Made by a program: the position numbers and the translations under genes. The notes beneath the pieces are model-generated. The model searched no databases. It saw nothing but the letters and a program-made list of their open reading frames with translations, and was not told the DNA's origin. Below, piece after piece: positions 2,208-39,114 of a stretch of 39,114 nt of DNA (position 1 is its first letter; every line of letters begins with the position of its first letter). This DNA is from Eubacteriales bacterium (GTDB lineage: Bacteria > Bacillota > Clostridia > Lachnospirales > Lachnospiraceae), in assembly GCA_030537135.1 (NCBI GenBank), contig JAUNOP010000024.1, positions 1 to 39,114 on the forward strand. The letters are read 5' to 3'.

Positions 2208-2216
2208 GGAATGCAT

Positions 2217-4019: not shown

Positions 4020-4040
4020 AGTAAAAGACCCATTTATTTA

Positions 4041-4085
4041 TATACCGCCGAAAAGCTTCATTTAAAAAAGCTTTTCGACGGTATA
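4041..4085. terminator. Bidirectional terminator between blaR1 and the recombinase-like gene
   Basis: Arms TATACCGCCGAAAAGCTT and AAGCTTTTCGACGGTATA pair over 18 bp with one mismatch and a 9-nt loop, between the 3' ends of two convergent genes. Confidence 0.75.
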
Positions 4086-4107
4086 CTGCTGTCTGAGGTT
4101 CCACTGC

Positions 4108-4989
4108 TCACGGCGCATCTACTCTTATTCTGACCAGATCATTTGCCTTTCGCTTCATGTCGTCTCGATAAGAGGTATTTTTGTATCTTCGGATACCTAT
4201 CATGCCGATTCCCAGCTGCTGTGCCTTCTGTTCCTCTGACGCGCCATATGCATCCATGACAAATGCGCAGCTGTTTCTTATTGTCATAAGGCTGTAATTA
4301 GGAATTCCGGATTTTTGTATATATTTTTTTATCATCCTTGTGACATAGCAGGGATTAATGGGATTGCCTCGATTATTAAAAAACAAATATTTATTCGGAG
4401 CCTTCTGCTGAAGGTACTTATTCAGTGCTGTCACCACATCTTCTGGTACATAACAATAATCGTGCCGTTGCTTAACATAGATATACATTCCATTTTCATA
4501 AACAGCCAGGTCTTCTTCTTCTATCTCAGCAATCTCAGAACTCTTCAATCCTACCCTGTAAGCCATCAGAAGAATACAATATCCCTGTATATCATCCTTT
4601 GCCGCTTGAAACAGCTTGTCAATGTGTTCAATTGGTGCAAGCTTTGCCTGAAGTCTCACTTTTTCTACCAGCTTAAGATAAGGAGTAAAATAATTCTCAA
4701 ACGAAATGCCGTACTTCTCACGATTTTCTAAAATAAAGGCTGCAAAAGCATGAAGGATATGAATTTTCTTTGACATTGTGCTTCCCTGCTGCTGACTCTT
4801 TTGTACTTTTTCCCGGAGCATAAGATAATACTTGTTTACATCCGTGGAATTCATATCCAGGAATCCTTTTTGTATACAATTTAAAAATTCATTTACAACA
4901 GATTCCATTGTCAGAATTGTTTTTTTTGACATGGTTTTGATGTAATCGGAATATATCTGTTGACAAATGGGTGATGTGTCTTGTAGCAT
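4108..4989 (-). CDS. Tyrosine-recombinase-fold protein, probably catalytically impaired
   Basis: A 293-residue protein with an N-terminal SAM-like core-binding domain (about 1-110) and a C-terminal phage-integrase-type catalytic fold. The landmark stretches align, but several catalytic residues are replaced. GLR of the first arginine box reads GLKSSE. The H-x-L-R-H box reads SLMTIRNS, keeping Arg but not the histidine. The L-G-H box reads LGIGM. The nucleophilic tyrosine may be retained (IRRYKNTS). It could be a decayed integrase or a recombinase-fold DNA-binding regulator. The start ATG follows AAGGAG at 10 nt. It lies just outside a cassette bounded by imperfect direct repeats (5029 and 7769). 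Confidence 0.75.
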   Translation of the reverse strand: MLQDTSPICQQIYSDYIKTMSKKTILTMESVVNEFLNCIQKGFLDMNSTDVNKYYLMLREKVQKSQQQGSTMSKKIHILHAFAAFILENREKYGISFENYFTPYLKLVEKVRLQAKLAPIEHIDKLFQAAKDDIQGYCILLMAYRVGLKSSEIAEIEEEDLAVYENGMYIYVKQRHDYCYVPEDVVTALNKYLQQKAPNKYLFFNNRGNPINPCYVTRMIKKYIQKSGIPNYSLMTIRNSCAFVMDAYGASEEQKAQQLGIGMIGIRRYKNTSYRDDMKRKANDLVRIRVDAP

Positions 4990-5028
4990 GGTTGGTTTTC
5001 TCCTTTTGGCAGGTGGGTTTGGTTTTTA

Positions 5029-5069
5029 AAAATTTTCTTTTAAATACTATTTTATTTTTATTGTTATTT
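5029..5069. repeat. AT-rich direct repeat, left copy
   Basis: About 41 bp, roughly 85% identical by eye to 7769-7809; the core TAAATACTATTT plus ATTTTTAT differs at only one of 21 positions. It lies just upstream of the recombinase-like gene and bounds the NADAR/C39 cassette on the left. Confidence 0.45.
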
Positions 5070-5147
5070 TAACCGAAGCATAATTATTTTGTCAAGTGAT
5101 ATTTTCATTATGACCGGGCAGCTGCAAGCTTGCAAGCTGTAACTCGC

Positions 5148-5196
5148 GAGAGCCAAAGGCTTTCTCTTAAAGGGACGCCTTTGGCTCTCTTTTTTA
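5148..5196. terminator. Strong hairpin after the C39/NADAR operon
   Basis: Perfect 13-bp stem GAGAGCCAAAGGC / GCCTTTGGCTCTC with a 16-nt loop, nine bases beyond the stop codon of the minus-strand operon. The T tract (TTTTTT) is on the plus-strand side, so read from the operon the stem is preceded by A's and not followed by U's. A second palindrome (CAGCTGCAAGCTTGCAAGCTG) lies at 5119-5139. Nothing else was found in 4990-5204. Confidence 0.6.
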
Positions 5197-5204
5197 TTCC
5201 CGAT

Positions 5205-5870
5205 TTATTCAAGTGATACTGTCATAAAATGGATTCCCACAGGAGTATTCATCCTGATTCGCAGCTCTTCTTCTGTAATAGTATGCTTTCCTGTTGCCGG
5301 ATTGCATACGTGAAAAATATTTCTTCCTGCCTCCTGGTAATAGGAATCAATTAAAATACCATGCAGCGTTTCTCCCTCATCACTGTCTACTGTACATGCA
5401 GCGATCACGATTTCGCCACGCTCCAGAATATCTGCCAGCATATTTCCCTGAACCTCTGTACAGGTCTTTTGTATTACCTTTTCATCAGCTTTATTTATCC
5501 AATACTTATATTTTTCCAGGATTTCGGGAAATACTTCCACCGGATAATATGGCTCTGCTCTAAGATTATTGTTTAAATATTCTTTTTCCGAATGATACAT
5601 ACATACAGTAAGCCCCCTTTCGGAAAGATAGTATGCAGCAGCTGAAAGAGGCGTTCCTCTTGTAAAGCGTTTCTCCAGTGAGGTATCGGCTGACTGTAGG
5701 ATTCGATAGCCCAAATATTGATAAAGCGTTGTTTCCATTTTCCTTGTCGGATATTTTTCAACTCCCGGAAGCTTATAGTAATAGTCAAGAACCATAAGAA
5801 TACAGCAGCACACACAGGTTTCCATGGATTGGTTCTGTCGGAAAATCCGAACATTCTTTTTGTGACTCAT
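5205..5870 (-). CDS. C39-like (papain-fold) cysteine peptidase domain protein
   Basis: A 221-residue soluble protein without a signal peptide. The N-terminus resembles the C39 active-site box: Gln12/Gln14, then Cys19 (QNQSMETCVCCCILMVLDYY), followed by the helix that is usually C-G-x-x-x-L-x-M-x-L. A candidate catalytic histidine is in ETLHGILIDSYY, and the following FHVCNPATG is the place where Asp/Asn normally completes the triad (here Asn). C39 enzymes usually cleave Gly-Gly leader peptides inside ABC exporters; this one is stand-alone and its substrate is unknown. Its ATG overlaps the stop of the NADAR gene by 4 bp (ATGA), so the two are probably translationally coupled. Family assignment rests on the active-site boxes only. 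Confidence 0.65.
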   Translation of the reverse strand: MSHKKNVRIFRQNQSMETCVCCCILMVLDYYYKLPGVEKYPTRKMETTLYQYLGYRILQSADTSLEKRFTRGTPLSAAAYYLSERGLTVCMYHSEKEYLNNNLRAEPYYPVEVFPEILEKYKYWINKADEKVIQKTCTEVQGNMLADILERGEIVIAACTVDSDEGETLHGILIDSYYQEAGRNIFHVCNPATGKHTITEEELRIRMNTPVGIHFMTVSLE

Positions 5871-6427
5871 CTCTCATTTTGTCCTTTCTTCAAAAAAAAT
5901 CTTGTCTCCATCAGTGCAAATCCCAGAAGATTCTCTCCCTTCCAATGATCTGGATTTTGAATATCAGAATTATCCATGGCAAGCCCAATGCCCCAGATTC
6001 TATCGTAGGGACTGGCTTCTGCCAGAACGCTCTCTCCTGTTCCCAACAAGAACTCCTTTAATTCACTGTTTTGGGAGAATTTTGCAAGGTTGCCCTTTAA
6101 GACAATCTCATACTTATGCCTGTTCCAGATATCTTCCTTAAAGTTGCAAATCTTTCTTCCTAATGCCTTATAATCTCTGGGATTATCGGCACTCATAATT
6201 TTTTCATAATTGTCCTGATCATTAAACAGCAATGCCTTTTGCGCCATCATATACTGCTCTGTGGTATGGTATTTCACTCCGTCCACTTCAAATTCACAGC
6301 CATACCATTGACTCAGGCAGGCCTTCCCGATTTCTCCCGGCTTTGCTGTATGCCCCCAGAAAAAAAGAAACTGCATTTTTTCTCCTGCATAAAACCTCCT
6401 GACAATTATCTCTTTGTCATACATCAT
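5867..6427 (-). CDS. NADAR family protein (YbiA/RibX-like N-glycosidase)
   Basis: A 186-residue NADAR-fold protein. Signatures are FLFFWGHT at the start, YHTTEQYMMAQKAL (the EHafqa-type helix), LKGNLAKFSQNSELKEFLL, and the very typical LAEASPYDRIWGIG with its conserved Glu, Asp and Trp. Characterised relatives cleave N-glycosidic bonds: YbiA acts on riboflavin-pathway intermediates, and other NADAR proteins have been reported to remove ADP-ribose from guanine as partners of DarT toxins. GGGGAG lies 8 nt before the first of two consecutive ATGs, which supports this start. The gene is 16 bp after the NadD-NADAR fusion and overlaps the C39-like gene, so the three form an operon. No DarT-like toxin is visible in the window. 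Confidence 0.85.
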   Translation of the reverse strand: MMYDKEIIVRRFYAGEKMQFLFFWGHTAKPGEIGKACLSQWYGCEFEVDGVKYHTTEQYMMAQKALLFNDQDNYEKIMSADNPRDYKALGRKICNFKEDIWNRHKYEIVLKGNLAKFSQNSELKEFLLGTGESVLAEASPYDRIWGIGLAMDNSDIQNPDHWKGENLLGFALMETRFFLKKGQNER

Positions 6428-26472: not shown

Positions 26473-26784
26473 TTATCTTCCAGCAGCCTTGTCAAGCCTT
26501 ATATTGCGGAAGTACAAAAGCATATCAATCGTGATTTCCACAATGTTCAGGATGTAGAAGAACCATCCCAGATAGAACAGCCATTCCAGTGTCTGTCCAG
26601 AAGCATTTGCTGCGTTCCAGAGCATAATCTTGCGAATAATTCCAAACACATATCCAATCCAGATAAAGACCTCAAAGAACAAGCTCTTGCCCTTTGCAGT
26701 TCTGGCCACCAAAGATTTGCGGATGGAAATCGGCCAGGAAAGACCAAAGCATAATATCATCAAGGCTTCCAGTAAATCGGTCAT
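26473..26784 (-). CDS. Small conserved membrane protein
   Basis: 103 residues with three hydrophobic segments and the stretch GLSWPISIRKSLVARTAKGK followed by SLFFEVFIWIGYVFGI. I know this pattern from conserved small proteins of Lachnospiraceae that resemble a half PQ-loop transporter, but no function is established. AAGGAG precedes the ATG. It lies 61 bp downstream of fumarase beta, beyond a hairpin without a U tract, so it may be read as the last gene of that operon. Confidence 0.75.
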   Translation of the reverse strand: MTDLLEALMILCFGLSWPISIRKSLVARTAKGKSLFFEVFIWIGYVFGIIRKIMLWNAANASGQTLEWLFYLGWFFYILNIVEITIDMLLYFRNIRLDKAAGR

Positions 26785-26845: not shown

Positions 26846-27403
26846 TTATTGATTCTTTGCCAGGTAGGCAGCGCGGCCTTCCTGATAAAGATTGTTGCCC
26901 TCGCTGTCAATGATGACAACCAGAGGCATTTCCTCTACATACAGCTTTCTTAAGGCCTCTGCTCCAAGATCCTCATAGGCAATCAGCTCTGCCTTTTTGA
27001 TGCACTTTGCAAGAAGAGCGCCTGCTCCGCCAATGGCTCCAAAGTACACGCCGCTGTATTTCTTCATTGCTTCTACAACCTCTGGAAGTCTGGCTCCCTT
27101 TCCGATCATTCCTCTGGCGCCCACAGACATCATGGTAGGTGCATAGGCATCCATACGTCCGCTTGTGGTGGGGCCTGCAGAGCCGATCACCTGACCTGGC
27201 TTTGCAGGAGTAGGTCCTACATAGTAGATGGTAGCATCGGTCGGGTCAAAGGGAAGCTCCTCTCCCCTTGCCAGTGCTTCACACATGCGCTTGTGTCCTG
27301 CATCACGGGAGGTATAGATGGTTCCTGTCAGATATACGGTGTCTCCTGCATGAAGGGTTTTTGCCAGCTCTGCAGTGAGCGGTAGCTGAATGTGCTTCTC
27401 CAT
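26846..27403 (-). CDS. Fumarate hydratase (Fe-S type), beta subunit
   Basis: A 185-residue C-terminal-type subunit of two-component class I fumarase/tartrate dehydratase. Features are LPLTAELAKTLHAGDTVYLTG, TSRDAGHKRM, YYVGPTPAKPGQVIGSAGPT then TSGRMD, and GARGMIGKGARL. It completes the active site of the alpha subunit, which starts the pair one base upstream. The pair interconverts malate and fumarate; by context, malate from the dehydrogenase at the head of the operon is turned into fumarate for the reductase. A tartrate dehydratase is the alternative from sequence alone, but the operon favours fumarase. Confidence 0.9.
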   Translation of the reverse strand: MEKHIQLPLTAELAKTLHAGDTVYLTGTIYTSRDAGHKRMCEALARGEELPFDPTDATIYYVGPTPAKPGQVIGSAGPTTSGRMDAYAPTMMSVGARGMIGKGARLPEVVEAMKKYSGVYFGAIGGAGALLAKCIKKAELIAYEDLGAEALRKLYVEEMPLVVIIDSEGNNLYQEGRAAYLAKNQ

Positions 27404-27404
27404 A

Positions 27405-28247
27405 TTAAATCACCTCCGTTTTGTGGCGGGTCACATGGCAGTTGATATTGATTGCGCACGGCATACCTGCGATGTGAGTTGGAAGAGTTTCGATATTCAG
27501 GCCAATGGCTGTGGTCTTTCCGCCAAAGCCCTGCGGTCCGATGCCCAGCTTGTTGATTTTTTCCAGCATTTCCTCCTCAAGATCTGCATAGAAAGGATCC
27601 GGATTCTTGGAATCAATGGGGCGCATCAGAGCCTTCTTTGCAAGAAGAGCTGCCTTGTCAAAGGTTCCGCCGATTCCAACGCCGACTACCATTGGCGGAC
27701 ATGGATTAGGACCTGCAGTTTCCACGGTCTCAAGGATAAAATCCTTGATTCCCTGAAGACCTGCAGACGGCTTGAACATGCGGATAGCGCTCATGTTCTC
27801 GCTTCCAAAGCCCTTTGGACCTACTGTGATTTTTACATTCTCGCCGGGAACGATCTCTGTGTAGAGCATGGCGGGTGTGTTGTCTCCGGTATTTCCGCGG
27901 CGTACAGGATCCTTTACAACAGATTTTCTTAAATAGCCCTTGTCATAGCCTCTGCGCACGCCTTCGTTCACTGCCTCTGAAAGGTCTCCGCCCACAAGGT
28001 GGACGTCCTGGCCAATTTCCAGAAATACACAGGCCATGCCTGTATCCTGGCAGATAGGAACATTCTGGGTATCTGCGATTTCAAAGTTCTGGATGATTTT
28101 GTCAAGAACACCCTGGGCAATTTCCCAGTCCTCGCATGCTCTGCAGTTCTTGATCGCGCACTTTACATCCTCTGGAAGATGCTCGTTTGCTGCAATACAC
28201 AGGCGCTCTACTACGTCTGTGATTTCACTTACCTGGATTTCACGCAT
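27405..28247 (-). CDS. Fumarate hydratase (Fe-S type), alpha subunit
   Basis: 280 residues, the [4Fe-4S]-carrying N-terminal-type subunit. Cluster cysteines are in [30 protein letters not shown] and [19 protein letters not shown]. Length is standard. AAGGAG is 9 nt before the ATG. The stop is separated from the beta subunit by one base. The 50-bp gap to the flavoprotein gene upstream is the largest in the operon, yet no promoter or terminator is evident there. Confidence 0.92.
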
Positions 28248-28297
28248 TTTAAGTGTCTCCTTTTCGTGAATAAAATAAGATTGATGAGGAAGATTTC

Positions 28298-29899
28298 TTA
28301 TCTCTCGTGGCGAGCGTATTTCGGAAGAAGAAGCGGAGATACATCGCCGGTAGCGATTCCTGCCTTCTCAAGCTCTGCGGCATAATCCTCAATATGCTTA
28401 AGGGTCAGAGCGCCGATTTCGATGTTCTTTGCCTTAGCTGCTGCTGCCTTTCCTGCATTGCGTCCAAATACAATAATGTCAAGCAGGGAGTTGCCCATCA
28501 GACGGTTTCTTCCGTGGATTCCTCCGACTGCCTCTCCGGCTACCAGAAGGTTGTCAATTACCTTTGTGAAGCCGTCTCCGCCGATTTCCAGACCGCCGTT
28601 CTGATAGTGGAGGGTCGGGTATACCAGAATCGGAAGCTTTCTCATATCAATGCCATAGTTCATATACATACGAAGCATAGCAGGAATTCTCTTCTCAATG
28701 GTTCCTTCGCCGCCAAGCTTCTCGATCATCGGGGTATCCAGCCATACGCCGCTTCCCAGAGGAGTATCTACTCCCTTGCCACGGTCAGAGCATTCACGAA
28801 TAATGGAAGCTGCCGCTACGTCGCGGGTTTCCAGCGGATGCATGAATGCCTCTCCGTCCTTATTTACCAGCATAGCTCCCAGAGAGCGAACCTTCTCTGT
28901 AACCAGTGCGCCGAAAATCTGAGATGGAAACGCCACGCCTGTCGGATGATACTGAATGGTATCCTGATACAGAAGCGGCGCTCCTGCACGATATCCCAGA
29001 ATCAGACCATCTGCTGTTGCTCCATAATGGTTGGAAGTCGGGAAGCCCTGGTAATGCATACGTCCTGCGCCTCCGGTAGCAATCACAACAGTCTTTGCCT
29101 TTGCTACCATGTAATCGCCTGTCTCCATGTTCAGAAGAACAGCTCCTGCCACCTGACCCTTCTCATCCTTGATCAGCTCTACAGCAGAGGTAAATTCCAC
29201 TACAGGAATCTGACGGTTGAGCACCTCGTCGCGGAGAGTACGCATGATTTCTGCTCCGGAATAATCCTTGCAGGCATGCATTCTCTTTCTGGAGGTTCCG
29301 CCGCCATGAGTGGTTATCATGTTTCCTTCTGCATCCTTGTCAAACATAACGCCCAGCTCGTTCAGCCATTTGATTGCATCAGGAGCTTCCATAACCAGTC
29401 TTCTTAAAAGCTCTGGTCTTGCTGCAAAATGTCCGCCGCCAAAAGCGTCCAGATAATGCTGTACAGGAGAATCGTTCTCCTTGTCTGCTGCCTGGATGCC
29501 GCCCTCAGCCATCATGGTGTTGGCGTCTCCGATACGCAGCTTGGTTACGATCATAACGTTTGCCCCTGCCTCGTGAGCCTCGATTGCTGCTGAGGAGCCT
29601 GCGCCGCCGCCGCCGATAATCAGAACATCCACGTCATAGTCTACCTTGGACAGGTCCACCTTGTCTGTCAGAAGACGGCTGTTGGAATGCAGCAAATTCA
29701 CAAGCTCGGCCGGCGCCTTTTCGCCCTTGTTCGGTCCAATCTTGATTTCCTCAAAGGCGTTTTCTTTATAATCCGGGTGATAAGCCTTCAGAAGCTGGTC
29801 TTTTTCTTCTGCTGTCATACGGCGCGGTTCCATGCCCATGCGAGCTTCCCGTGTCGCCTCCACCTTTTTTACGGATTCCATCATTTCTGGTGTAAACAT
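28298..29899 (-). CDS. Fumarate reductase-type flavoprotein (TfrA/FrdA-like)
   Basis: 533 residues. An unusual N-terminal extension of about 88 residues (charged, helical) precedes the FAD-binding fold (VDVLIIGGGGAGSSAAIEAH). Substrate-site stretches are present: HGGGTSRKRMHA, YHPTGVAFPSQ, ETRDVAAASIIRE and LHYQNGGLEIGGDGF. Where Frd/Sdh enzymes have the His that binds FAD covalently (S-H-T), this protein has A-N-T (Asn127), so FAD is probably non-covalent, as in thiol:fumarate reductase and aspartate oxidase. It reduces fumarate to succinate in the cytosol. No cytochrome or anchor subunit is in the operon. Electrons should come from the 29914-30588 Fe-S protein. Confidence 0.88.
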   Translation of the reverse strand: MFTPEMMESVKKVEATREARMGMEPRRMTAEEKDQLLKAYHPDYKENAFEEIKIGPNKGEKAPAELVNLLHSNSRLLTDKVDLSKVDYDVDVLIIGGGGAGSSAAIEAHEAGANVMIVTKLRIGDANTMMAEGGIQAADKENDSPVQHYLDAFGGGHFAARPELLRRLVMEAPDAIKWLNELGVMFDKDAEGNMITTHGGGTSRKRMHACKDYSGAEIMRTLRDEVLNRQIPVVEFTSAVELIKDEKGQVAGAVLLNMETGDYMVAKAKTVVIATGGAGRMHYQGFPTSNHYGATADGLILGYRAGAPLLYQDTIQYHPTGVAFPSQIFGALVTEKVRSLGAMLVNKDGEAFMHPLETRDVAAASIIRECSDRGKGVDTPLGSGVWLDTPMIEKLGGEGTIEKRIPAMLRMYMNYGIDMRKLPILVYPTLHYQNGGLEIGGDGFTKVIDNLLVAGEAVGGIHGRNRLMGNSLLDIIVFGRNAGKAAAAKAKNIEIGALTLKHIEDYAAELEKAGIATGDVSPLLLPKYARHER

Positions 29900-29913
29900 G
29901 CTTATCTCCCTCC

Positions 29914-30588
29914 TTATTTCTCAATCTCTCTTGTGTTGTAAAGCTCCTGCATCTCGGTGATTGGTTTCTGCATAATCTGCTCAATCAGGTCGTCGAACTT
30001 GCCCTCGTTTACTTCTGCCACACGTTTCTTCAGGTGCTGAGTTTCCGGAGCTATGTACTTTCCGGTAAGTCTTCTTGCAAGAAGTCCTACCATCGGATGA
30101 GAGATGCCTGCCGGACATCTCACAGAGCAGCAGCCGCAGCTTACGCAGTCAAAGGATTCCTCTGCACATTTCTCAAATTCTCCCCTCTGTGCGTATGCAA
30201 TGTACTGCATAACGTTCAGGCTCTGAGTACATGCCTTTGTACAGGCATTGCAGCCGATGCAGCTGTAGATTTCCGGATACAGCTCCATCATAATCTGCTG
30301 AGTTGGCCGGATTTCCCCGATATCATAGGTTCTCTTATCTGTGGGGAAGAAAGGAATGCTGGCAACATACATGCCCTCCTGCACCTGTGTCTGACAGGCA
30401 AGGCAGGTCTTGAGTTCATTCTTTCCCTTGATTCTGTAAATGGTAGCGCAGGCGCCGCAGAAGCCATGACGGCAGCCGCAGCCTCTTTTCAGCGTATAGC
30501 CTGCATATTCCATAGCGGTCATAATGGTCAGATCAGCAGGCACACTGTACTTCTTACCAAAAAAATATACATTTACCATGTTTTGCAT
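29914..30588 (-). CDS. Fumarate reductase-type iron-sulfur protein (FrdB/TfrB N-part-like)
   Basis: 224 residues. A plant-type [2Fe-2S] domain comes first (Cys39-x4-Cys44-x2-Cys47 ... Cys62), then two [4Fe-4S] sites (Cys110, 113, 116, 120 and Cys148, 151, 154, 158). Classical FrdB has [2Fe-2S], [4Fe-4S] and [3Fe-4S]; here the third site keeps four cysteines. It resembles the N-terminal half of methanogen TfrB, whose C-terminal half is HdrB-like. In this operon an HdrB is encoded separately, so the split halves may be TfrB in two pieces. It probably wires the Hdr/Flx unit to the flavoprotein. Confidence 0.85.
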   Translation of the reverse strand: MQNMVNVYFFGKKYSVPADLTIMTAMEYAGYTLKRGCGCRHGFCGACATIYRIKGKNELKTCLACQTQVQEGMYVASIPFFPTDKRTYDIGEIRPTQQIMMELYPEIYSCIGCNACTKACTQSLNVMQYIAYAQRGEFEKCAEESFDCVSCGCCSVRCPAGISHPMVGLLARRLTGKYIAPETQHLKKRVAEVNEGKFDDLIEQIMQKPITEMQELYNTREIEK

Positions 30589-30606
30589 TGTAGGTACCAG
30601 TCCTTT

Positions 30607-31461
30607 CTAATATTCATTGGGCAGTTCATCAATTTCATCGCAGCGGAACACCGGGCCGTCCTTGCATACATATTTGGATCCGATATTGCAGCGGCCGCAT
30701 TTTCCAATACCGCACTTCATGCGCAGCTCCAGGGTGGTATATACCTGAGTTTTCTCAAAACCCATTTCCACCAGTGCAGCCAGTACAAATTTAATCATGA
30801 TAGGCGGTCCGCAGATAAGAGCGGTCTTGTCTGTTGCAAACTCCAGCTCCTTCAGATAGGAGGGAACAAAGCCTACATGTCCGTCCCAGCCCTCCTGCGG
30901 GCGGTCAATGGTAAGATACACATTCACGCCCTCTGTTTTCATCCAGACCTCCTGGATTTCCTTGAGCTGCACAAGATCGTCTGCTGAACGGGAGCCATAC
31001 AGAATGTCTACTGTACCATAGTTTTCTCTGTTGTCCAGCACATAATTGATGACAGAACGAAGAGGCGCAAGTCCGATACCTCCGGCAATGAACAGAAGGT
31101 TCTTTCCCTTCAGCTCTGTTTCCACTGGAAAATGATTGCCATAGGGTCCTCTCACAGTAATCTCATCGCCAACCTCCAGGCTGTGGAGATAGTCTGTGAG
31201 CATTCCGCACTTCTTGATGCTGAATTCCTGATACTCTTTGTTTGTGGGGGAAGAAGTGATGGAAAACATACCTTCACTGATTCCCGGTGCGCACACCATG
31301 GCGCACTGTCCGGGCATATGCTCAAAAAGCTTGCCGCCCTCTGGCGCGTTGACACGGAAGGTCTTTACATCCGGTGTCTCCTGTCGGATATCCGTGATGA
31401 CTCCCACCTGCGGAATCAGGGTATCCAGTGTATAATTCTTATGACAGGTACATTCTCTCAT
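30607..31461 (-). CDS. flxA: FlxA-like NAD(P)H/FAD oxidoreductase subunit
   Basis: 284 residues in the ferredoxin-NADP reductase/DHOD electron-transfer family. The N-terminal FAD barrel has FSITSSPTNKEYQEFSI, and the nucleotide domain has LLFIAGGIGLAPLRSVI and ALICGPPIMI. The C-terminus carries a small [2Fe-2S] cysteine cluster (CGIGKCGRCNIGSKYVC). Such subunits feed electrons from NAD(P)H into HdrABC in sulfate reducers (FlxABCD-HdrABC) and into sulfhydrogenases. It overlaps the FlxB-like gene by one base (TAATG). Confidence 0.87.
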   Translation of the reverse strand: MRECTCHKNYTLDTLIPQVGVITDIRQETPDVKTFRVNAPEGGKLFEHMPGQCAMVCAPGISEGMFSITSSPTNKEYQEFSIKKCGMLTDYLHSLEVGDEITVRGPYGNHFPVETELKGKNLLFIAGGIGLAPLRSVINYVLDNRENYGTVDILYGSRSADDLVQLKEIQEVWMKTEGVNVYLTIDRPQEGWDGHVGFVPSYLKELEFATDKTALICGPPIMIKFVLAALVEMGFEKTQVYTTLELRMKCGIGKCGRCNIGSKYVCKDGPVFRCDEIDELPNEY

Positions 31462-32501
31462 TACTTGTCACCTCCCTGAGACTGAAATGCTTTTACAACT
31501 TTTACAATATTCAAGGCAGACGGACATTTTGCCACACAGCGGCCGCAGCCCACACAGGAATACATTCCGTCATTGTTTGCCGGGAAATATACCAGCTTGT
31601 GCATAAATCTCTGACGGAAGCGCTGCATCTGGCTGTTTCTGTTGTTTCCGTGAGCCATCATGGTGAAGTCAGAGTACATGCAGGAATCCCAGCAACGGTA
31701 TCTCTTCACGCCGTGACCGGTATCATAATCTTTGATATCATAGCACTGGCAGGTCGGGCACACAAAGGTGCAAGTGCCGCAGGCCAGACAGGGCTTATAT
31801 AAATCCTCCCATACAGGGGAATCAAATTTTTCTTTTAAGGCGTCTTTGTTCCAGCCCTCAAGAGAAAGGTTGGTGTAGGGAAGCTTCTCAATGATAGAGC
31901 GGACAGCGTTCTTCTCTTCCTCCACCTTTGCCTCGTCGCTCTCGTCTGCCAGACTTAAGATATCCTTCAGCTCGCTGGTGAGAGCCTCTCCCTTCTCTGT
32001 AAGAGGCTTCCAGTAAAGGGTATCCTCTACTGCCCAGCAGGCAACGTCAGCCCCCGGCTCTGCTGCATCCACGCCGAATACCTTGCAGAAGCAGGTCTCC
32101 TCAGGCTCATGACAGGCCAGGGAAACAATGATACCGTGCTGTCTTCTTGCTGCATAAAAGGTGTCAATCGGCTCAGCCAAAAACACCCGGTCCAGAACCT
32201 CCACGCCCTTGATATCGCACGCCTTCATGCCAAAGACCACAAAATCCTGATTTTTCAGCTCTTCCGGCTTAATGGAGAGCTTTTTTCCGTTCTTCTCGCA
32301 GGTGTACAGATTTTCGCTCTGCGGAAAGAAAACATCCTTTGGAGATTTCACAGAGTTGAGTACGTCAATATCCACCTCTGCGTCCTGGCTCCATGGTCCA
32401 AAGTTTACCTGTCCGGCATTGCGGATAGGAAGATACAGCTCTTTGCTTCCGGCGATTGCCTGGTATAAGGAGGGTAACTGTTCTTTTGCAATCTTATACA
32501 T
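31461..32501 (-). CDS. flxB: FlxB-like 4Fe-4S protein (sulfhydrogenase beta / AsrA family)
   Basis: 346 residues. The first 210 are the HydB/AsrA-type domain (VFGMKACDIKGVEVLDRVFL). Two ferredoxin-type sites follow: CLACGTCTFVCPTCQC and CVGCGRCVAKCPSALN. HydB-type subunits pass electrons between an FAD/NAD(P)H subunit (here FlxA) and partner Fe-S proteins. Overlaps FlxA; preceded 2 bp upstream by the next Fe-S gene. The letters B and C for the two Fe-S genes are my assignment by analogy. Confidence 0.82.
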   Translation of the reverse strand: MYKIAKEQLPSLYQAIAGSKELYLPIRNAGQVNFGPWSQDAEVDIDVLNSVKSPKDVFFPQSENLYTCEKNGKKLSIKPEELKNQDFVVFGMKACDIKGVEVLDRVFLAEPIDTFYAARRQHGIIVSLACHEPEETCFCKVFGVDAAEPGADVACWAVEDTLYWKPLTEKGEALTSELKDILSLADESDEAKVEEEKNAVRSIIEKLPYTNLSLEGWNKDALKEKFDSPVWEDLYKPCLACGTCTFVCPTCQCYDIKDYDTGHGVKRYRCWDSCMYSDFTMMAHGNNRNSQMQRFRQRFMHKLVYFPANNDGMYSCVGCGRCVAKCPSALNIVKVVKAFQSQGGDK

Positions 32502-32503
32502 GT

Positions 32504-33478
32504 CTATCTCCTTTCTGCCACAACGGAAGGCTCCACATCCTCAAATGTGAAGTTGGTCAGCGGGGCTTTTGTCTCAGTATCCTCTCCTGCCTGGAAATCA
32601 CCGTAGAAGGTATCAATATCCTTGATGAACTTTCTGTTGAACAGGTGGAGCGGAATTCCCTGCGGACATACACGGCTGCACTCGCCGCAGTCTGTGCAGC
32701 GTCCTGCCACGTGGAAGGCGCGGATAATATGGAACATTTTCTCTTCAAAGCTGTCCACATTTGCCTTCTGGCTGCTGTCAAACTTGGTGCTGTCAAACAC
32801 ACACTTTCTGCAGCTGCATGCAGGGCATACATTCCGGCAGGCATTGCAGCGGATACACTTGGAAAGCTCGCTCTGGAAGAAGGCAAACTTTTCCTCCGGA
32901 GACATTTTTTCGATTTTCTCAACCTCTGCAAAACGGTCAGCATCCTTGGTGTCCTTTGACTCGCCGATCAGCTCGTCATAAACCATATGCTCCTTGCCCT
33001 TGCACACATGGCATCTCTCAAGCATCGCGTCTGCATAGGAGCAGGTCTTCTCTCCATAAATGGTCTGTACAGTGAGCGTATCGCACGGATCGGAAAGCTC
33101 TGCGCCGGAAATGCTCTGCACACCCTTTATGCCAAGCTTCTTCAAATTCTCTGCGTTTAATTTTCCCTTGCAGCCCACGCCAATGATGTAGGCCTTGTCT
33201 CTGTCCACTCTGTGTTCCTTTAACAGCTGATTAAAGCTGTAGGTGTCACAGGGCTTTAAGAATACCAGGGTTTTTCCCTCAAGCTTTGAAGCCTCAATCA
33301 TATATTTGCTAAGGTTGGCTCCGCAAAAGCCGTTATATACAAAATCATCTAATTCTTCAGCGCTCTGGAAGTAAGCAGGCTCTGGATTATAGGGCAGGTC
33401 GCCGGCTCTCCAGCCGAGAATGCGCACTACCGTTCCGTCAGCCAGAAGCTCCTTTGCGCGGTTTCTTAATTCCTGCAT
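32504..33478 (-). CDS. flxC: FlxC-like 4Fe-4S protein
   Basis: 324 residues. The N-terminal half resembles the FrhB/FdhB-type fold (LEGKTLVFLKPCDTYSFNQL, IIGVGCKGKLN). The C-terminal half has two ferredoxin sites, CIRCNACRNVCPACSC and CTDCGECSRVCPQGIP. With the neighbouring FlxB-like gene it forms the Fe-S core of the NAD(P)H-oxidising half. The start overlaps the end of the FlxD-like gene by 13 bp; RBS GGGGGA. Confidence 0.8.
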   Translation of the reverse strand: MQELRNRAKELLADGTVVRILGWRAGDLPYNPEPAYFQSAEELDDFVYNGFCGANLSKYMIEASKLEGKTLVFLKPCDTYSFNQLLKEHRVDRDKAYIIGVGCKGKLNAENLKKLGIKGVQSISGAELSDPCDTLTVQTIYGEKTCSYADAMLERCHVCKGKEHMVYDELIGESKDTKDADRFAEVEKIEKMSPEEKFAFFQSELSKCIRCNACRNVCPACSCRKCVFDSTKFDSSQKANVDSFEEKMFHIIRAFHVAGRCTDCGECSRVCPQGIPLHLFNRKFIKDIDTFYGDFQAGEDTETKAPLTNFTFEDVEPSVVAERR

Positions 33479-33909
33479 CTTAAATCCCCCAATCTTACGT
33501 TCTCGCCCAGAGAACGGATTTTTTCAACAAATTCGTTCATGGTAACGGAGAATTTTACTCCCTCTGCCGCGGATACCCACTCTACGCGGGTGCGTCCGTT
33601 TTCCACGCCAATATAGTCCAGCATGGAAAACAGGAGAGTCATACGTCTTCTTGCATAATAATTTCCTGTGCTGTAATGGCAGTCTCCTGGATGGCAGCCG
33701 CACATGATAACGCCGTCTGCGCCCTTTTCAAAGGCTCTCAGGATAAACATCGGATTTACACGGCAGGAGCAGGGAACACGGATAATCTTCACGTCAGCCG
33801 GATAGGACAGACGGCTGCTTCCCGCCAGGTCAGCGCCTGCATAGCTGCACCAGTTACAGCAGAAGGCCACGATTTTCGGTCTGAATTCTTCGTTTTTTTC
33901 TATCGACAT
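33466..33909 (-). CDS. flxD: FlxD/MvhD-like electron-transfer protein
   Basis: 147 residues of the MvhD/FlpD family. It has conserved cysteine groups at 17-21 (CCNWC), 47-49 (CSC) and 70-77 (CGCHPGDC), matching the [2Fe-2S]-binding pattern. MvhD links an electron-donating module to HdrA; here it would link FlxABC to HdrA. It overlaps hdrA by 10 bp and flxC by 13 bp, consistent with co-translation of a complex. RBS GGAGG at 9 nt. Confidence 0.88.
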   Translation of the reverse strand: MSIEKNEEFRPKIVAFCCNWCSYAGADLAGSSRLSYPADVKIIRVPCSCRVNPMFILRAFEKGADGVIMCGCHPGDCHYSTGNYYARRRMTLLFSMLDYIGVENGRTRVEWVSAAEGVKFSVTMNEFVEKIRSLGENVRLGDLRCRN

Positions 33910-35888
33910 ATTGCATCTACCTCCGCGATAATCTGTCTGTTAGAGAAGCCCTGAAGGTCCATAGCTCCGGACGGGCAGGCAACGGTACATGCGCCACAGC
34001 CCTGACACAGCGCGCTGTTGACCTGTGCGATACGGCGAACCTCACGGATACCATGGTCATTAACCTGCTTATCCTCATAGGAAATCGCTCCATACGGACA
34101 CACATTTGCACAGGTAGAGCAGCCGTTGCACAGAAGCTCATCCGGCTTGGCTGTACACGGATTGGTGAGAAGCTTGTCCTTTGCAAGAAGACCGATCGCC
34201 TTCACTGCTGCGGCTCCTGCCTGGGATACGGTTTCCGGAACATCCTTGGGTCCCTGGCATACGCCGGACAGGAAGATACCTGCTGTCGGAGATTCTACCG
34301 GACGCAGCTTTGCATGTGCTTCTGTGAGGAAGTTGTTGGTATCAATGCTGGCTGTGAGCATGGTAGCAATCTTTCTTACAGACGGATCCGGTTCAATGGC
34401 AGCTGCCAGAACCACCATGTCAGCCTCCATAAGAATCTGCTTATTGTCAAGAAGGTCTACGCCCTGTACCAGAAGCTGGCCGTTTGGCTGAGGAATTACC
34501 TTTCCTACCTGACCCTTTACATAATTTACGTGATATTCCTCTACTGCTCTTCTGTAGAATTCATCAAAATTCTTTCCAGGAGTACGAACGTCAATATAGA
34601 ATACCGTGATGTTCACATCTGGATATTTGTCCCGAATCAGCATGGCATGCTTTGCCGTGTACATACAGCAGATTTTGGAGCAATAGCTCTTTCCTCTGTT
34701 GTCTGAGCATCGAGAGCCTACGCACTGAATAAACACCATGTTCTTTGGAGGCTTGTGGTCGGACATGCGCTCCAGATGTCCCTTTGTCGGGCCTGCTGCA
34801 TTCATGATACGCTCCAGCTCCAGGGAAGTGATAACGTCAGGACTCTGGTTGTATGCATACTCATCATAGTTGTCAAGCTTAATAATGTCAAAGCCTGTGG
34901 CAACTACAATAGCGCCGTACTTCTCTGTGATAATTTCATCCTTCTGTTCATAATCAATAGCCCCTGCCTGACAAACCTTTGCGCAGACGCCGCACTTTCC
35001 TGTCTTAAATTTGATGCAGTGTTCCCTGTCAATCACAGGCACATTCGGAATTGCCTGTGCAAACGGCGTATAAATGGCGCTTCTGGTATTTAAGCCTCTG
35101 TTGAATTCACTTGGAGCCTTCTTTGACGGACATTTCTCCTGACACACGCCGCAGCCTGTACATTTGTCCATGTTCACGCTTCTGGCTTTCTTTCTGATGT
35201 CCACGGTAAAGTCTCCCACAAAGCCTGTTACCTTCTCTACCTCACTGTATGTATAAATCGTAATATTCTCGTGTGCTGCTGCCTCCACCATCTTTGGGGT
35301 AAGAATACAGGCAGAGCAGTCCAGAGTCGGGAAGGTCTTGTCCAGCTGGGACATTCTTCCTCCAATACTTGGAGTCTTCTCCACGATGTCTACCTTGTAG
35401 CCTGCCTCTGCAATATCCAGAGCTGTCTGAATGCCTGCGATTCCGCCGCCAATCACCAGGGCGCGCTTTGTAACGCGGCTCTCTCCTGCCTTGAGGGGAG
35501 TATTCAGATTCACCTTTGCAATAGCAGCTCTTGCCAGGATAACAGCCTTCTTTGTGGCTTCCTCCATATCCTTGTGAATCCAGGAGCAATGCTCACGGAT
35601 GTTGGCAATTTCTACCATGTAAGGATTGATTCCGGCCTTTTCCGCACATTTGCGGAAGGTCGCCTCATGCATACGAGGAGAACAGGAACATACCACAATG
35701 CCTGTCAGACCCTTTTCCTGAATGGCCTGTGCGATTCTCGCCTGACCTGCCTCTGAACACATATACTGATAATCTTCTGCATGAACCACACCTGGTTCCA
35801 GCTTTGCCATTTCCACTACTTTCTTCACATCTACAGTTGCTGCGATGTTGCTTCCGCAGTGACAGACAAATACACCTAATCTCTGCAA
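33900..35888 (-). CDS. hdrA: HdrA, flavin-bifurcating subunit of a heterodisulfide reductase-type complex
   Basis: 662 residues from the TTG start at 35888, chosen because GGAGGTGA lies five bases before it; the frame from 35903 would place the RBS inside the gene. Layout follows single-FAD HdrA: the N-terminal domain with VFVCHCGSN, the FAD fold ALVIGGGIAGIQTALDIAEA with LDCSACILTPKM, inserted ferredoxin sites (CTGCGVCQEKCPSKK and CGVCAKVC) and a C-terminal ferredoxin pair (CNGCSTCANVCPYG and CQGCGACTVACPSG). HdrA is the known site of flavin-based electron bifurcation. Its neighbours suggest NAD(P)H as donor, with ferredoxin and fumarate as acceptors. Confidence 0.93.
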   Translation of the reverse strand: MQRLGVFVCHCGSNIAATVDVKKVVEMAKLEPGVVHAEDYQYMCSEAGQARIAQAIQEKGLTGIVVCSCSPRMHEATFRKCAEKAGINPYMVEIANIREHCSWIHKDMEEATKKAVILARAAIAKVNLNTPLKAGESRVTKRALVIGGGIAGIQTALDIAEAGYKVDIVEKTPSIGGRMSQLDKTFPTLDCSACILTPKMVEAAAHENITIYTYSEVEKVTGFVGDFTVDIRKKARSVNMDKCTGCGVCQEKCPSKKAPSEFNRGLNTRSAIYTPFAQAIPNVPVIDREHCIKFKTGKCGVCAKVCQAGAIDYEQKDEIITEKYGAIVVATGFDIIKLDNYDEYAYNQSPDVITSLELERIMNAAGPTKGHLERMSDHKPPKNMVFIQCVGSRCSDNRGKSYCSKICCMYTAKHAMLIRDKYPDVNITVFYIDVRTPGKNFDEFYRRAVEEYHVNYVKGQVGKVIPQPNGQLLVQGVDLLDNKQILMEADMVVLAAAIEPDPSVRKIATMLTASIDTNNFLTEAHAKLRPVESPTAGIFLSGVCQGPKDVPETVSQAGAAAVKAIGLLAKDKLLTNPCTAKPDELLCNGCSTCANVCPYGAISYEDKQVNDHGIREVRRIAQVNSALCQGCGACTVACPSGAMDLQGFSNRQIIAEVDAICR

Positions 35889-35908
35889 TGAGTTCACCTC
35901 CAACCTTT

Positions 35909-36298
35909 CTATCTGCTGTATCTTCTGAATGCGCTGACTAAGAGCTGCTGTGGAAGCTCCGGATCAAGAAGCTCCGGAATTTCGTCCGGTGACAGGTAAT
36001 TAGCTCCTCTTTCACGGATAACCATCTGTCTTGCAGCATCAATAAGCTTGCCCGGCTTTACATCCCTTGGGCATCTCTCTATACATGCAAAGCAGGAGAG
36101 ACATTTCCACAGGGATTTTGACTTTACCAGAGACTCTACATCATCATGAAGCACATAGGATACGAACTGATGGGGCTTGATATCCATTTCGTTAAAGGAC
36201 GGACAGGAAGCAGAGCATTTTCCGCACTTCATGCATTTATAAGGATTCACTCCGCTGATTTCCTGGATTCTCTCTGCCTGGTTGCTCTTCAGACTCAT
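35909..36298 (-). CDS. hdrC: HdrC, heterodisulfide reductase-type 4Fe-4S subunit
   Basis: 129 residues with two [4Fe-4S] sites: Cys22, 25, 28, 32 (CMKCGKCSASCP) and Cys66, 69, 72, 76 (CLSCFACIERCP). It carries electrons between HdrA and HdrB. It overlaps hdrB by 4 bp (ATGA) and is 20 bp from the hdrA start. Length is as expected for soluble HdrC; no membrane segment. Confidence 0.92.
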   Translation of the reverse strand: MSLKSNQAERIQEISGVNPYKCMKCGKCSASCPSFNEMDIKPHQFVSYVLHDDVESLVKSKSLWKCLSCFACIERCPRDVKPGKLIDAARQMVIRERGANYLSPDEIPELLDPELPQQLLVSAFRRYSR

Positions 36299-37092
36299 AG
36301 CTTTACCTCCTCTTTTACGCCCAGCGCCTCTGCCAGAAGCTCTGTGAAATAGTGGACAGGAAGCTTATTCTTGCTCTTGCTGGTATTCAGGTTATACAGG
36401 CACAGAGGACAGGCTGTAATCAGCTCTTCTGCTCCAAAGCCTGCTGCTGAATCCATAATCTTGTCTACCATGGAGCCTGCCAGCTCCTTCTCCTTGAGGG
36501 AGATATATCCGCCGCAGCATTCATTGCGGTATGGATAAATGACCGGCTGCGCGCCAATGGCACGGATAAAGTCTTCAATAATGGTTGGGTTTTCCGCATT
36601 GTCCATCTCCAGAATAGTACTCGGACGCAGAAGCAGGCAGCCATAGTAGGCGCCGATTTTTCTTCCCTTCAGCGGATTTACCGCTTTCTTCTTGATTTCA
36701 TCAAAACCCACTCTGTCGCGGAGAACTTCAAGATAATGAAGAACCGTTGTCTCTCCTGCATAGGGGGTGTCAAGCTGCATATAATTATTTGCTCTTGTGC
36801 GGATATCATCCACATTTTTCATGTCATCGTTTACACGCTTGATAACATGATGACAGGCAGAACACAAGGTTACCAGGTCCTGTCCTTTTTCCTTGGCTGC
36901 ATTCAGTGTCCGGACAGAGGAGAGCTTTGTCGCTATCTCGTCAGTACCCAGCGGATAAACGCCGCCGCAGCACTGCCAGTTCTCTATCTCCTCCAGTTCA
37001 AACCCAAGTGCACGCGCAGATGCTCTGGCATAAGCATCCAAATCCTTTGCCTTTGTCTTCAGGGTACATCCTGGATAATAACTGTAAACCAT
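36295..37092 (-). CDS. hdrB: HdrB, CCG-domain subunit
   Basis: 265 residues with two complete CCG (cysteine-rich) motifs: Cys9, Cys41-Cys42, Cys77-x2-Cys80 and Cys152, Cys192-Cys193, Cys228-x2-Cys231. In methanogens these bind the two non-cubane [4Fe-4S] clusters that reduce the heterodisulfide. In this operon the terminal acceptor may instead be the FrdB/TfrB-like protein and hence fumarate, or an unknown disulfide. RBS AGGAGG; 9 bp after the malate dehydrogenase stop. Confidence 0.93.
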   Translation of the reverse strand: MVYSYYPGCTLKTKAKDLDAYARASARALGFELEEIENWQCCGGVYPLGTDEIATKLSSVRTLNAAKEKGQDLVTLCSACHHVIKRVNDDMKNVDDIRTRANNYMQLDTPYAGETTVLHYLEVLRDRVGFDEIKKKAVNPLKGRKIGAYYGCLLLRPSTILEMDNAENPTIIEDFIRAIGAQPVIYPYRNECCGGYISLKEKELAGSMVDKIMDSAAGFGAEELITACPLCLYNLNTSKSKNKLPVHYFTELLAEALGVKEEVKL

Positions 37093-37101
37093 AAGTTCCT
37101 C

Positions 37102-38052
37102 CTATAAGCTGATTTCAGCGATAACTGCCTTCAGGGAGTCTGCACTCTTTCTCAATTTTGCGATTTCATCATCTGTCAGGCTTACTGGAACCTTGCCCTT
37201 GACACCCTCCGGACCTACCATGGTCAGAGTGCTGATGCATACGTCGCTGATTCCATACTCGCCGTGCATCATGGAAGATACGGTTGCGGTAGAATCAGAA
37301 GCTGCAAGAAGAATGCTTACCAGCTTGCACACTGCCACTGACACTGCATAGAAGGTTGCTCCCTTGTTTGCAATGATTTTTCCGCCGGATTTATGAACGT
37401 ATTCTTCCATTGCAGCTCTGTCAAGAGGTTCTTTTTCTTCCTTACCGATGGAATTGAGAATAGAGGTATACTCTTCGATTCCCACGCAGGAAATATGAGC
37501 TCTGGACCACGGAACAAATGAGGTGTCTCCATGCTCGCCGAATACATAGGCATGAATGTTCTTCTGCGCAACGCCAAAATGCTCGGAAAGGCCGCAGCGA
37601 AGTCTTGCTGTATCCAAAATAGTGCCGGAACCGATAATCTGACGCTCAGGCAGACCGGAAATCTTGGTAAATACATAGGTCATGATGTCAACCGGATTGC
37701 TTACGATGATGTACAGAGCATTTGGAGCTGCTGCTACAATCTGAGGAGTGATCTCCTTGAGGATGTTTACATTTGTCTGGGTCAGCTCAATTCTGGTCTG
37801 ACCTGGCTTTCTGGCAATTCCAGAGGTGATGATAACGATGTCGGAGTCCTTGGCATCCTCGTATTCGCCTGCCACAATGGAAATCGGGTCTCTAAAGCAG
37901 GTACCCTGGGCAATATCCATTACTTCTCCTTCTACCTTCTGCTTGTTGATGTCAATGATTACAATTTCAGACGCCATATCGCCGTTTGATAAAGTATAGG
38001 CGATTGTGGAGCCTACACTTCCGGCTCCGATAATAGTAATCTTACTGCTCAT
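37102..38052 (-). CDS. mdh: LDH-like malate dehydrogenase (often annotated as L-lactate dehydrogenase)
   Basis: 316 residues of the LDH/MDH superfamily: GAGSVGSTIAYT for NAD, VSNPVDIMTYV, the catalytic pair Asp147 and His174 (YVFGEHGDTSF), Arg150 and Arg87. The substrate-specificity loop reads SGIARKPGQTR. Arg81 stands where lactate dehydrogenases have Gln (position 102 in LDH numbering), while malate dehydrogenases have Arg. The rest of the scaffold is LDH-like. I therefore read it as reducing oxaloacetate to malate, which fits the downstream fumarase and fumarate reductase. RBS AAAGGAG. First gene of the twelve-gene operon. Confidence 0.85.
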   Translation of the reverse strand: MSSKITIIGAGSVGSTIAYTLSNGDMASEIVIIDINKQKVEGEVMDIAQGTCFRDPISIVAGEYEDAKDSDIVIITSGIARKPGQTRIELTQTNVNILKEITPQIVAAAPNALYIIVSNPVDIMTYVFTKISGLPERQIIGSGTILDTARLRCGLSEHFGVAQKNIHAYVFGEHGDTSFVPWSRAHISCVGIEEYTSILNSIGKEEKEPLDRAAMEEYVHKSGGKIIANKGATFYAVSVAVCKLVSILLAASDSTATVSSMMHGEYGISDVCISTLTMVGPEGVKGKVPVSLTDDEIAKLRKSADSLKAVIAEISL

Positions 38053-38437: not shown

Positions 38438-38466
38438 ACTATACCACATCGTGAATTATTTAACAA
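38438..38466 (-). promoter_or_regulatory. Promoter upstream of the candidate RNA and the mdh-hdr operon
   Basis: Minus strand TTGTTA, 17-bp spacer, TATAGT. It is the best promoter found upstream of the mdh gene, about 390 bp from its ATG. Confidence 0.6.
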
Positions 38467-38810: not shown

Positions 38811-38954
38811 TGTAGAAAGCATGAGATTTCAATCATCGCTATGACTGCCAATGCCTTCGCAGAAGATATTCAAAATGCCCTGGATTCTGGTATGAACGCT
38901 TATATGGCAAAGCCAGTGAACATGGAGGTATTAGAAAAGATCGTTCGGGAAATA
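38811..38954 (+). pseudogene. C-terminal remnant of a response-regulator receiver domain
   Basis: The frame contains ISIIAMTANAFAEDIQNALD then SGMNAYMAKPVNMEVLEKIV. This is the beta4-alpha4-beta5-alpha5 end of a receiver domain of the hybrid-kinase type, with the switch Thr and the conserved Lys-Pro. The phospho-acceptor half is missing and a stop lies just upstream. From 38640 to 38810 I see nothing else recognisable. Confidence 0.6.
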
Positions 38955-38975
38955 GACAGCCCCTTCCCAAACCTT

Positions 38976-39114
38976 CTATTTTTCCAAAACCAGAATCACA
39001 GCCTGGTAGCCCTCCAGAGTAACTGCCCCATTCCCCTCTTTAAAAGAAGACCTATTATTCAGAAGGACCTCCTTGCAGGCAGCAGGCAGTAGAAAGCTCT
39101 CCGCCACCAACTGG
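38976..39114 (-). CDS. 3' end of a probable GH13 glycosidase (partial)
   Basis: The last 45 codons of a minus-strand gene that enters from the right edge. The frame reads LLPAACKEVLLNN, then GNGAVTLEGYQAVILVLEK and a stop. This ends like the C-terminal beta-sandwich of alpha-glucosidase/amylase-type enzymes (V-L-L-N-N ... L-x-x-Y-x-A-x-[IV]-L). The catalytic domain is outside the window. Confidence 0.5.
   Translation of the reverse strand, partial: QLVAESFLLPAACKEVLLNNRSSFKEGNGAVTLEGYQAVILVLEK

Follow-up and report, generated by a model that had tools for sequence, protein, structure and literature searches.

The window analysed here, a 39,114-nucleotide stretch of contig JAUNOP010000024.1 from a Eubacteriales bacterium of the Lachnospiraceae, carries twelve contiguous minus-strand genes (26846-38052) that bring together a probable malate dehydrogenase (MDH), a seven-subunit FlxABCD-HdrABC set, a two-subunit fumarate reductase (FrdAB) and a class I fumarase. 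We consider it very probable that this gene set functions jointly in fumarate reduction, and likely that the products of its nine core genes (hdrBCA-flxDCBA-frdBA) form a soluble complex; reduction of ferredoxin by that complex is somewhat probable. The reading that fits best, and that we favor with moderate confidence, is a soluble NADH:ferredoxin/fumarate reductase, with subunit contact, electron path and bifurcation as its predicted elements.

In this reading, the nine core proteins would assemble into a single soluble enzyme that uses NADH to reduce fumarate to succinate. Electrons would enter at FlxA and be relayed by FlxB, FlxC and FlxD to the FAD of HdrA, where they would split: one branch would lead from HdrA to ferredoxin, the other from HdrC through HdrB and FrdB to the FAD of FrdA and on to fumarate. 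MDH and fumarase would supply fumarate from oxaloacetate, and a terminal membrane protein (pq103 in the window, a SucE-like permease in most relatives) would probably export the succinate. We infer complex formation, the use of NADH rather than NADPH as the donor, transfer from HdrB to FrdB, ferredoxin reduction, the direction of the reaction and the export role.

The operon and its products

The preliminary description had reported twelve contiguous minus-strand genes with gaps of at most 50 bp, and this was borne out: all of the open reading frames (ORFs) are present, with intergenic distances of -13 to +50 bp. They are transcribed in the order mdh, hdrB, hdrC, hdrA, flxD, flxC, flxB, flxA, frdB, frdA, fumA, fumB and start with ATG in 11/12 cases, the exception being the TTG of hdrA. 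Domains were assigned with Pfam and NCBIfam models. The Hdr, Flx and Frd names are family-level because nearly all of these proteins fall short of the curated NCBIfam thresholds for the models concerned; FlxD lies well above its Pfam cut-off.

37102..38052, minus strand: mdh, LDH-fold dehydrogenase, probably malate dehydrogenase (Ldh_1_N/C; above L-lactate dehydrogenase cut-off; R81)
36295..37092, minus strand: hdrB, two CCG domains, ligands for two noncubane 4Fe-4S clusters (PF02754 twice; the PDB matches are five HdrB sequences)
35909..36298, minus strand: hdrC, 2x4Fe-4S protein (HdrC models below cut-off; eight ligand cysteines)
33900..35903, minus strand: hdrA, FAD and multi-Fe-S subunit, proposed bifurcation site, TTG start (HdrA2 model; PDB: 5odc_A)
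33466..33909, minus strand: flxD/mvhD, Fe-S link between FlxABC and HdrA (PF02662, 183 bits against a cut-off of 22)
32504..33478, minus strand: flxC, Fe-S protein (4Fe-4S dicluster domains; ligand cysteines invariant)
31461..32501, minus strand: flxB, HydB/AsrA-like Fe-S protein (PF17179; ShyB 195 bits, below cut-off)
30607..31461, minus strand: flxA, FAD/NAD(P)H-oxidizing subunit (PF00970, PF00175 and PF10418; conserved in 75 sequences)
29914..30588, minus strand: frdB, 224-residue Fe-S protein with one 2Fe-2S and two full 4Fe-4S ligand sets (invariant cysteines)
28298..29899, minus strand: frdA, fumarate-reductase-type flavoprotein (PF00890 at 91-472; active-site residues and N127 invariant)
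27405..28247, minus strand: fumA, class I fumarase alpha (PRK06246 above cut-off)
26846..27403, minus strand: fumB, class I fumarase beta (PRK06842 above cut-off)

Six residues of FrdA (H318, T334, E335, R359, H431 and R466) are invariant and align with SdhA active-site residues, whose roles we take to be catalysis and dicarboxylate binding. Asn127 sits at the position of the SdhA histidine that binds FAD covalently and is invariant in 26 sequences; from FrdA mutants, asparagine at this position presumably favors reduction over succinate oxidation. The best NCBIfam model for FrdA is TfrA, at 336 bits against a cut-off of 718 and so below equivalog level, and the match extends only to position 426 of the 546-position profile. 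Matches to the TfrA, SdhA and NadB profiles all end 98-154 positions before the profile ends: FrdA has an N-terminal extension of approximately 87 conserved residues before the FAD domain and lacks a C-terminal domain of SdhA/TfrA length. The FrdB ligands for all three clusters (C39/44/47/65, C110/113/116/120 and C148/151/154/158) are invariant among 15 diverse sequences, and the third cluster has four cysteines rather than the 3Fe-4S pattern with one missing. Neither the covalent-FAD histidine nor the 3Fe-4S third cluster of quinol:fumarate reductases and succinate dehydrogenases (SDH) is therefore present in the window proteins.

HdrB is the sole CCG protein of the operon, and all ten of its CCG cysteines are kept in 62/62 sequences, as are all eight ligand cysteines of HdrC. 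Its best NCBIfam model, MFR SdhE, gives 139.9 bits against a cut-off of 500, again below equivalog level. The claim that the two halves of methanogen TfrB occur here as separate genes proved correct, since FrdB matches TfrB positions 19-169 and HdrB matches positions 266-487; the TfrB model ranks fifth for FrdB and fourth for HdrB. Because the CCG half of TfrB is missing from FrdB, no site for thiols is evident in FrdAB by itself, and with HdrB as the only CCG protein either HdrB feeds FrdB directly or FrdAB has another donor.

HdrA matches the HdrA2 model at 789 bits (cut-off 1100) and PDB 5odc_A at 684 bits over residues 8-665, which is near full length. Most of its cysteines are kept in 62/62 sequences and some in 60-61/62, with C399 and C549 in 56/62 and C86 in 15/62; the cluster cysteines are likewise kept, with few exceptions, in HdrA, FlxB, FlxC and FlxD. 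FlxA carries NAD- and FAD-binding domains. The earlier assignment of two HydB/FrhB-type Fe-S proteins holds in part: FlxB matches HydB/ShyB models and FlxC does not, and neither matched an FrhB family at the Pfam and NCBIfam thresholds used.

With scores of 330 (cut-off 304) and 342 (cut-off 339), the mdh product exceeds NCBIfam thresholds for L-lactate dehydrogenase and falls under those for MDH, which departs from its initial naming; the specificity position, R81, is nonetheless arginine in 43/43 sequences (the window and 42 relatives). The best PDB match has glutamine at this position, and the second, 1y6j, has arginine despite its L-lactate dehydrogenase title. If glutamine denotes lactate and arginine malate, the rule that we assume here, the product is likely to be a malate dehydrogenase. 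The fumA and fumB products score 422 bits against the PRK06246 cut-off of 276 and 286 bits against the cut-off of 238 for PRK06842 ("Fe-S-containing hydro-lyase"), respectively.

Conservation and exchange of linked genes

A sample of 341 Clostridia-class genomes was searched for the core genes. FrdB was found in 52 genomes at E <= 1e-10, of which 47 (E <= 1.7e-78) were kept as carriers; five (G273, G070, G123, G003 and G065; E 8.5e-12 to 8.4e-11) were dropped because their matches were partial and beside Rnf genes. The FlpD (FlxD) match was also found in 52/341 genomes, including 46 of the 47 carriers (Fisher p ~4e-49 over the 341 genomes, relatedness not corrected), and the two genes share a contig in 43. 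Their distance on the shared contig is 3,246-3,631 bp in 42/43 cases and 5,270 bp in G269. Of the six FlpD genomes without FrdB, five carry different Hdr sets; in the sixth, G032, flxA is interrupted by the end of a 5.3-kb contig. Three FlpD clusters without FrdB (L055, L056 and L057, in G155, G037 and G070) encode very long HdrA-like proteins of 1009-1483 residues alongside Flx genes.

Gene order was compared in the best 80 of at least 565 FrdB relatives confirmed in a contig scan, a selection that leans toward close relatives. The nine-gene core is complete and in a single order in 60 of these loci and is cut by contig ends in the other 20, so the expected co-occurrence of Hdr/Flx with FrdAB held in both surveys and the core can be regarded as a genuine unit. 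All seven FlxABCD-HdrABC subunits are encoded contiguously in the same order in 60/60 complete loci, frdB and frdA are spaced by 28 bp or less in 79 loci, and no fusion of two query proteins was found among the 80. In genome G173 (L043, G173:C34, 5788-7775), hdrA is broken into overlapping ORFs of 258 and 420 residues, through a frameshift or an assembly error. G269 has the order fumA-fumB-frdB-frdA-hdrB-hdrC-hdrA-flxD-flxC-flxB-flxA, in which frdB-frdA precede hdrB instead of following flxA; its Frd and HdrA proteins are 48-60% identical to those of the window, and its fumarase genes 33-35%. Because the set is rearranged yet retained, this genome speaks more strongly for joint function than shared order alone would.

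Record titles place the loci in Lachnospiraceae, Oscillospiraceae, Ruminococcus, Blautia, Dorea, Mediterraneibacter and other Clostridia, mostly of gut-sample origin where the title states a source; the named Blautia are B. schinkii (L068) and B. glucerasea (L076). FrdB identity reaches 96% between GTDB families yet is 73% between two genera of one family, and FrdB is present in only 2/13 sampled genomes of the host's own family. These uneven identities and the sparse presence point to probable transfer of the cluster between lineages.

The genes flanking the core vary. In the 60 complete loci, fumA is found in 44, an unrelated class II fumC in nine, both in none and neither in seven (mutual exclusion p 8e-7, relatedness ignored). 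Replacement of a class I fumarase by an unrelated class II enzyme at the same place suggests that the operon needs fumarate to be made. An mdh gene is present in 41/60. The originally proposed NADH donor, fumarate acceptor and MDH-fumarase-fumarate reductase sequence fit these fumarase swaps and the conserved residues described above.

A thirteenth minus-strand gene, pq103, lies 61 bp past fumB and is the last of the run; the first annotated-size ORF downstream of it is on the opposite strand.

26473..26784, minus strand: pq103, small membrane protein, candidate C4-dicarboxylate exporter (three hydrophobic stretches; position)

The operon was said at first to have no cytochrome or anchor gene; no Sdh_cyt gene was found, but pq103 is an adjoining membrane-protein gene, probably for a transporter and not an anchor. 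A PF06826 permease of the AspT/SucE family, which includes a succinate exporter (PMC9527358, in the part covered), occurs in 45/80 loci, 44 of them on the same strand. pq103 occurs in 15/80 and never together with the permease (0/80; Fisher p 5e-7, relatedness not corrected), and 12/60 complete loci have neither. The window copy gave no Pfam match at E 0.01, PQ-loop included, and no PDB match up to E 10; PQ-loop was weakly matched in 2/11 relatives (best E 0.028). pq103 is therefore a candidate exporter by its position and its exclusion of the permease; homology does not show this role.

Proposed electron path and alternative explanations

Published sources are cited below by number, and what is said of each holds for the parts of it covered here. 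Both the gene set and the bifurcation idea are already in print for Pseudoclostridium thermosuccinogenes, and the window is a further member of the kind proposed there. The "succinate operon" of this organism (CDQ83_RS03365-RS03315) is described as containing fumarase, Flx-Hdr, fumarate reductase and a hypothetical protein for which succinate transport is suggested; when CO2 is limiting the operon is up approximately 4-fold, and H2 lowers succinate, as bifurcation predicts (PMC7282089). Coupling of fumarate reduction to ferredoxin reduction was put forward there as an assumption, citing a 2019 preprint (10.20944/preprints201912.0288.v1). By description, fumarase, Flx-Hdr and fumarate reductase genes share one operon in both organisms, and the locus-tag span, judged from its numbering, fits seven Hdr/Flx and two fumarate reductase genes; in the parts covered, the paper lists one fumarase gene and no mdh, whereas in the window mdh is present and class I fumarase is encoded by two genes. 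It was the only published link between fumarate reductase and Hdr/Flx found in the open-licence literature, the scope of the search, with subscription papers outside it. What is added here is the wider distribution, the gene swaps, the quinone-poor setting and the rarity of Rnf, which goes against simple energy coupling.

Several better-known systems resemble parts of the operon. The FlxABCD-HdrABC complex of sulfate reducers, reportedly described by Ramos et al. in 2015, has the same seven subunits, with NADH oxidation and an HdrA branch point as proposed for the window, where by contrast the set is joined to FrdAB; the title of a Desulfovibrio paper is also said to link fumarate reduction with Hdr-Flox and Rnf. 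TfrAB of methanogens is a soluble thiol:fumarate reductase that acts on CoM-SH and CoB-SH. It shares solubility with the proposed enzyme, and both FrdB and HdrB of the window match TfrB, but TfrB is one chain where the window has separate genes, and FrdA ends early relative to the TfrA profile. For type-E (methylmenaquinol) fumarate reductases, SdhE is the best NCBIfam model of window HdrB, yet far under its cut-off, and the host has no UbiA match.

The host genome (3.07 Mb, 91% complete) has Rnf, one FeFe hydrogenase and an ATP-dependent phosphoenolpyruvate carboxykinase (PEPCK), and no match to UbiA, MM_CoA_mutase or Complex1_49kDa (PF00346). Sdh_cyt was found neither in this 91% complete genome nor above cut-off in the 341, a search that did not extend to the FrdC/FrdD and b558 families. 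The absence of sdhC, offered earlier as a check, carries little weight as a test, because Sdh_cyt stayed below cut-off in the whole class sample. A membrane-anchored or type-E quinone-linked fumarate reductase was set aside on the Sdh_cyt, UbiA and SdhE results, Sdh_cyt being the anchor family searched. Among the 47 carriers, UbiA matched in seven at E 0.001 (four above cut-off), MM_CoA_mutase in two, Complex1_49kDa in three and FeFe hydrogenase in 45; UbiA, PEPCK, methylmalonyl-CoA mutase and hydrogenase were searched in the carriers only and not in the 294 non-carriers. Hydrogenases are a commoner ferredoxin outlet among carriers than Rnf.

PF00890 has 15 matches in the host, one of which is NadB (L040, above cut-off). 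A separate minus-strand locus (L041, G000:C10:26000-36000, 220-6044) encodes a flavoprotein with a Tat-type signal, FMN_bind and FAD_binding_2, with Rnf genes directly downstream and TatC- and TatA-like ORFs, named by eye, upstream. This arrangement suggests an exported reductase that receives electrons from Rnf, and the flavoprotein could be another reductase of the host.

Energetically, the bifurcating reaction is feasible. With potentials of -320 mV for NADH and +33 mV for fumarate (PMC5861303), oxidation of 2 NADH by fumarate and ferredoxin at -500 to -420 mV was calculated to be downhill at -33 to -49 kJ/mol, and NADH to fumarate alone yields -68 kJ/mol. Succinate is a main fermentation product and a signal in the gut, and if its formation also reduces ferredoxin, approximately 0.56 ATP more would be gained per succinate where Rnf is present (our own sum from the H+ stoichiometries in PMC12773636). 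In that 2026 study of Blautia luti, the measured fumarate reductase and MDH activities were high and frdAB was strongly transcribed; the energy balance there assumes an ordinary NADH-dependent fumarate reductase, and neither "heterodisulfide" nor "Hdr" occurs in the main text, in the parts covered. The question is directly testable in cultured gut strains, and the strong, fixed linkage provides an uncluttered setting in which to study an HdrB that would pass electrons to another protein and not to a disulfide.

A number of observations weigh against a bifurcating, energy-conserving fumarate reductase. Rnf is present in 24/47 carriers compared with 233/294 non-carriers (p 9e-5, relatedness not corrected), so in about half of the carriers ferredoxin from such a complex could not feed this ion pump, and 21/47 carriers lack both Rnf and the PF00346 complex. 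This rarity weakens the term "energy-conserving" in general, though not for the window's host, which has Rnf. PEPCK_ATP was found in only 15/47 carriers (GTP-PEPCK and carboxylases were not searched), so oxaloacetate supply is not uniform among them. In the complete loci, mdh is absent upstream in 19/60 and both fumarases in 7/60. The best NCBIfam models for FrdB are RsxC/RnfC and not a fumarate reductase subunit, and Rex-box matches showed no excess over shuffles in 59 upstream regions (observed best scores 8-11). In P. thermosuccinogenes, a culture redox potential lowered by sulfide acted opposite to H2 (PMC7282089), and the purified Moorella MetFV-HdrABC-MvhD complex did not reduce ferredoxin (PMC8578096).

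The Moorella complex, like the proposed one, has a soluble reductase joined to Hdr/MvhD genes, with methylene-tetrahydrofolate reductase in place of fumarate reductase, and its similar wiring speaks for a soluble, non-bifurcating NADH:fumarate reductase in which HdrA and Flx only conduct electrons to FrdAB and ferredoxin is uninvolved. That the step from NADH to fumarate is strongly downhill by itself, and that ferredoxin would give no ion gradient by the Rnf or PF00346 routes in 21/47 carriers, point the same way. We nevertheless think this explanation unlikely, since HdrA keeps its Fe-S ligands and aligns almost from end to end with the bifurcating HdrA in 5odc, nine proteins are more than a simple NADH:fumarate reductase needs, and the H2 effect in P. 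thermosuccinogenes agrees with ferredoxin reduction. Still less likely are two enzymes in one operon, with Flx-Hdr reducing a small disulfide or DsrC-like protein and FrdAB drawing electrons from elsewhere or from thiols made by HdrB, as methanogen TfrAB does with CoM-SH and CoB-SH. The ten CCG cysteines of HdrB are ligands of the disulfide-reducing site in methanogens, the nearest named fumarate reductase is TfrAB, and PMC7282089 itself writes of electrons passing to "ferredoxin (and thiols)". However, FrdAB has no evident place to oxidize thiols without the CCG half, a single HdrB would have to perform both tasks, none of the neighbor families present in at least four loci is a disulfide carrier, and an obligate partnership is suggested by the almost invariable co-occurrence and by G269, with its rearranged set.

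Hdr-type enzymes are reversible in principle, and icd, which adjoins the cluster in five loci, might mean a partial tricarboxylic acid cycle; succinate oxidation together with reduced ferredoxin to form NADH (confurcation) is nonetheless highly improbable given the asparagine in place of the covalent-FAD histidine, the exporter-type neighbors, the presence of PEPCK in the host, where methylmalonyl-CoA mutase was not found, and succinate production by the published relative P. thermosuccinogenes. Only a slim chance is left for FrdA acting on a different enoate beside fumarase and MDH genes by coincidence: its scores lie far under every fumarate reductase, SDH and NadB cut-off and it lacks the usual C-terminal length, but its dicarboxylate-binding residues, aligned with SdhA, are invariant, and class I and class II fumarases substitute for each other beside it.

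The soluble NADH:ferredoxin/fumarate reductase can be extended to a broader picture, which we offer tentatively and judge to be somewhat short of probable. A large and patchily distributed set of gut Clostridia would use a quinone-free, soluble, bifurcating fumarate reductase in which the noncubane clusters of HdrB serve as a relay into FrdB and not as a disulfide reductase; a fixed core would be combined with swapped parts (class I or II fumarase, SucE-type permease or pq103), and pq103 would be a new three-helix succinate exporter.

Other features of the window and neighboring loci

Among genes near the cluster, rex is found in 7/80 loci and NADP-isocitrate dehydrogenase (icd) in 5/80. No RNA element was detected at gathering threshold in the window. 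Near the contig end, an open frame at 38811-39092 on the plus strand resembles, by eye, the end of a response-regulator receiver domain, the N-terminal part of which is not in the same frame. The exact sigma-70 consensus has no occurrence in the window; a looser pattern gave 21 matches in the region scanned compared with 14.1 expected, and one of these lies upstream of mdh.

38438..38466, minus strand: candidate promoter TTGTTA-17-TATAGT with TG before the -10 element (pattern match only)

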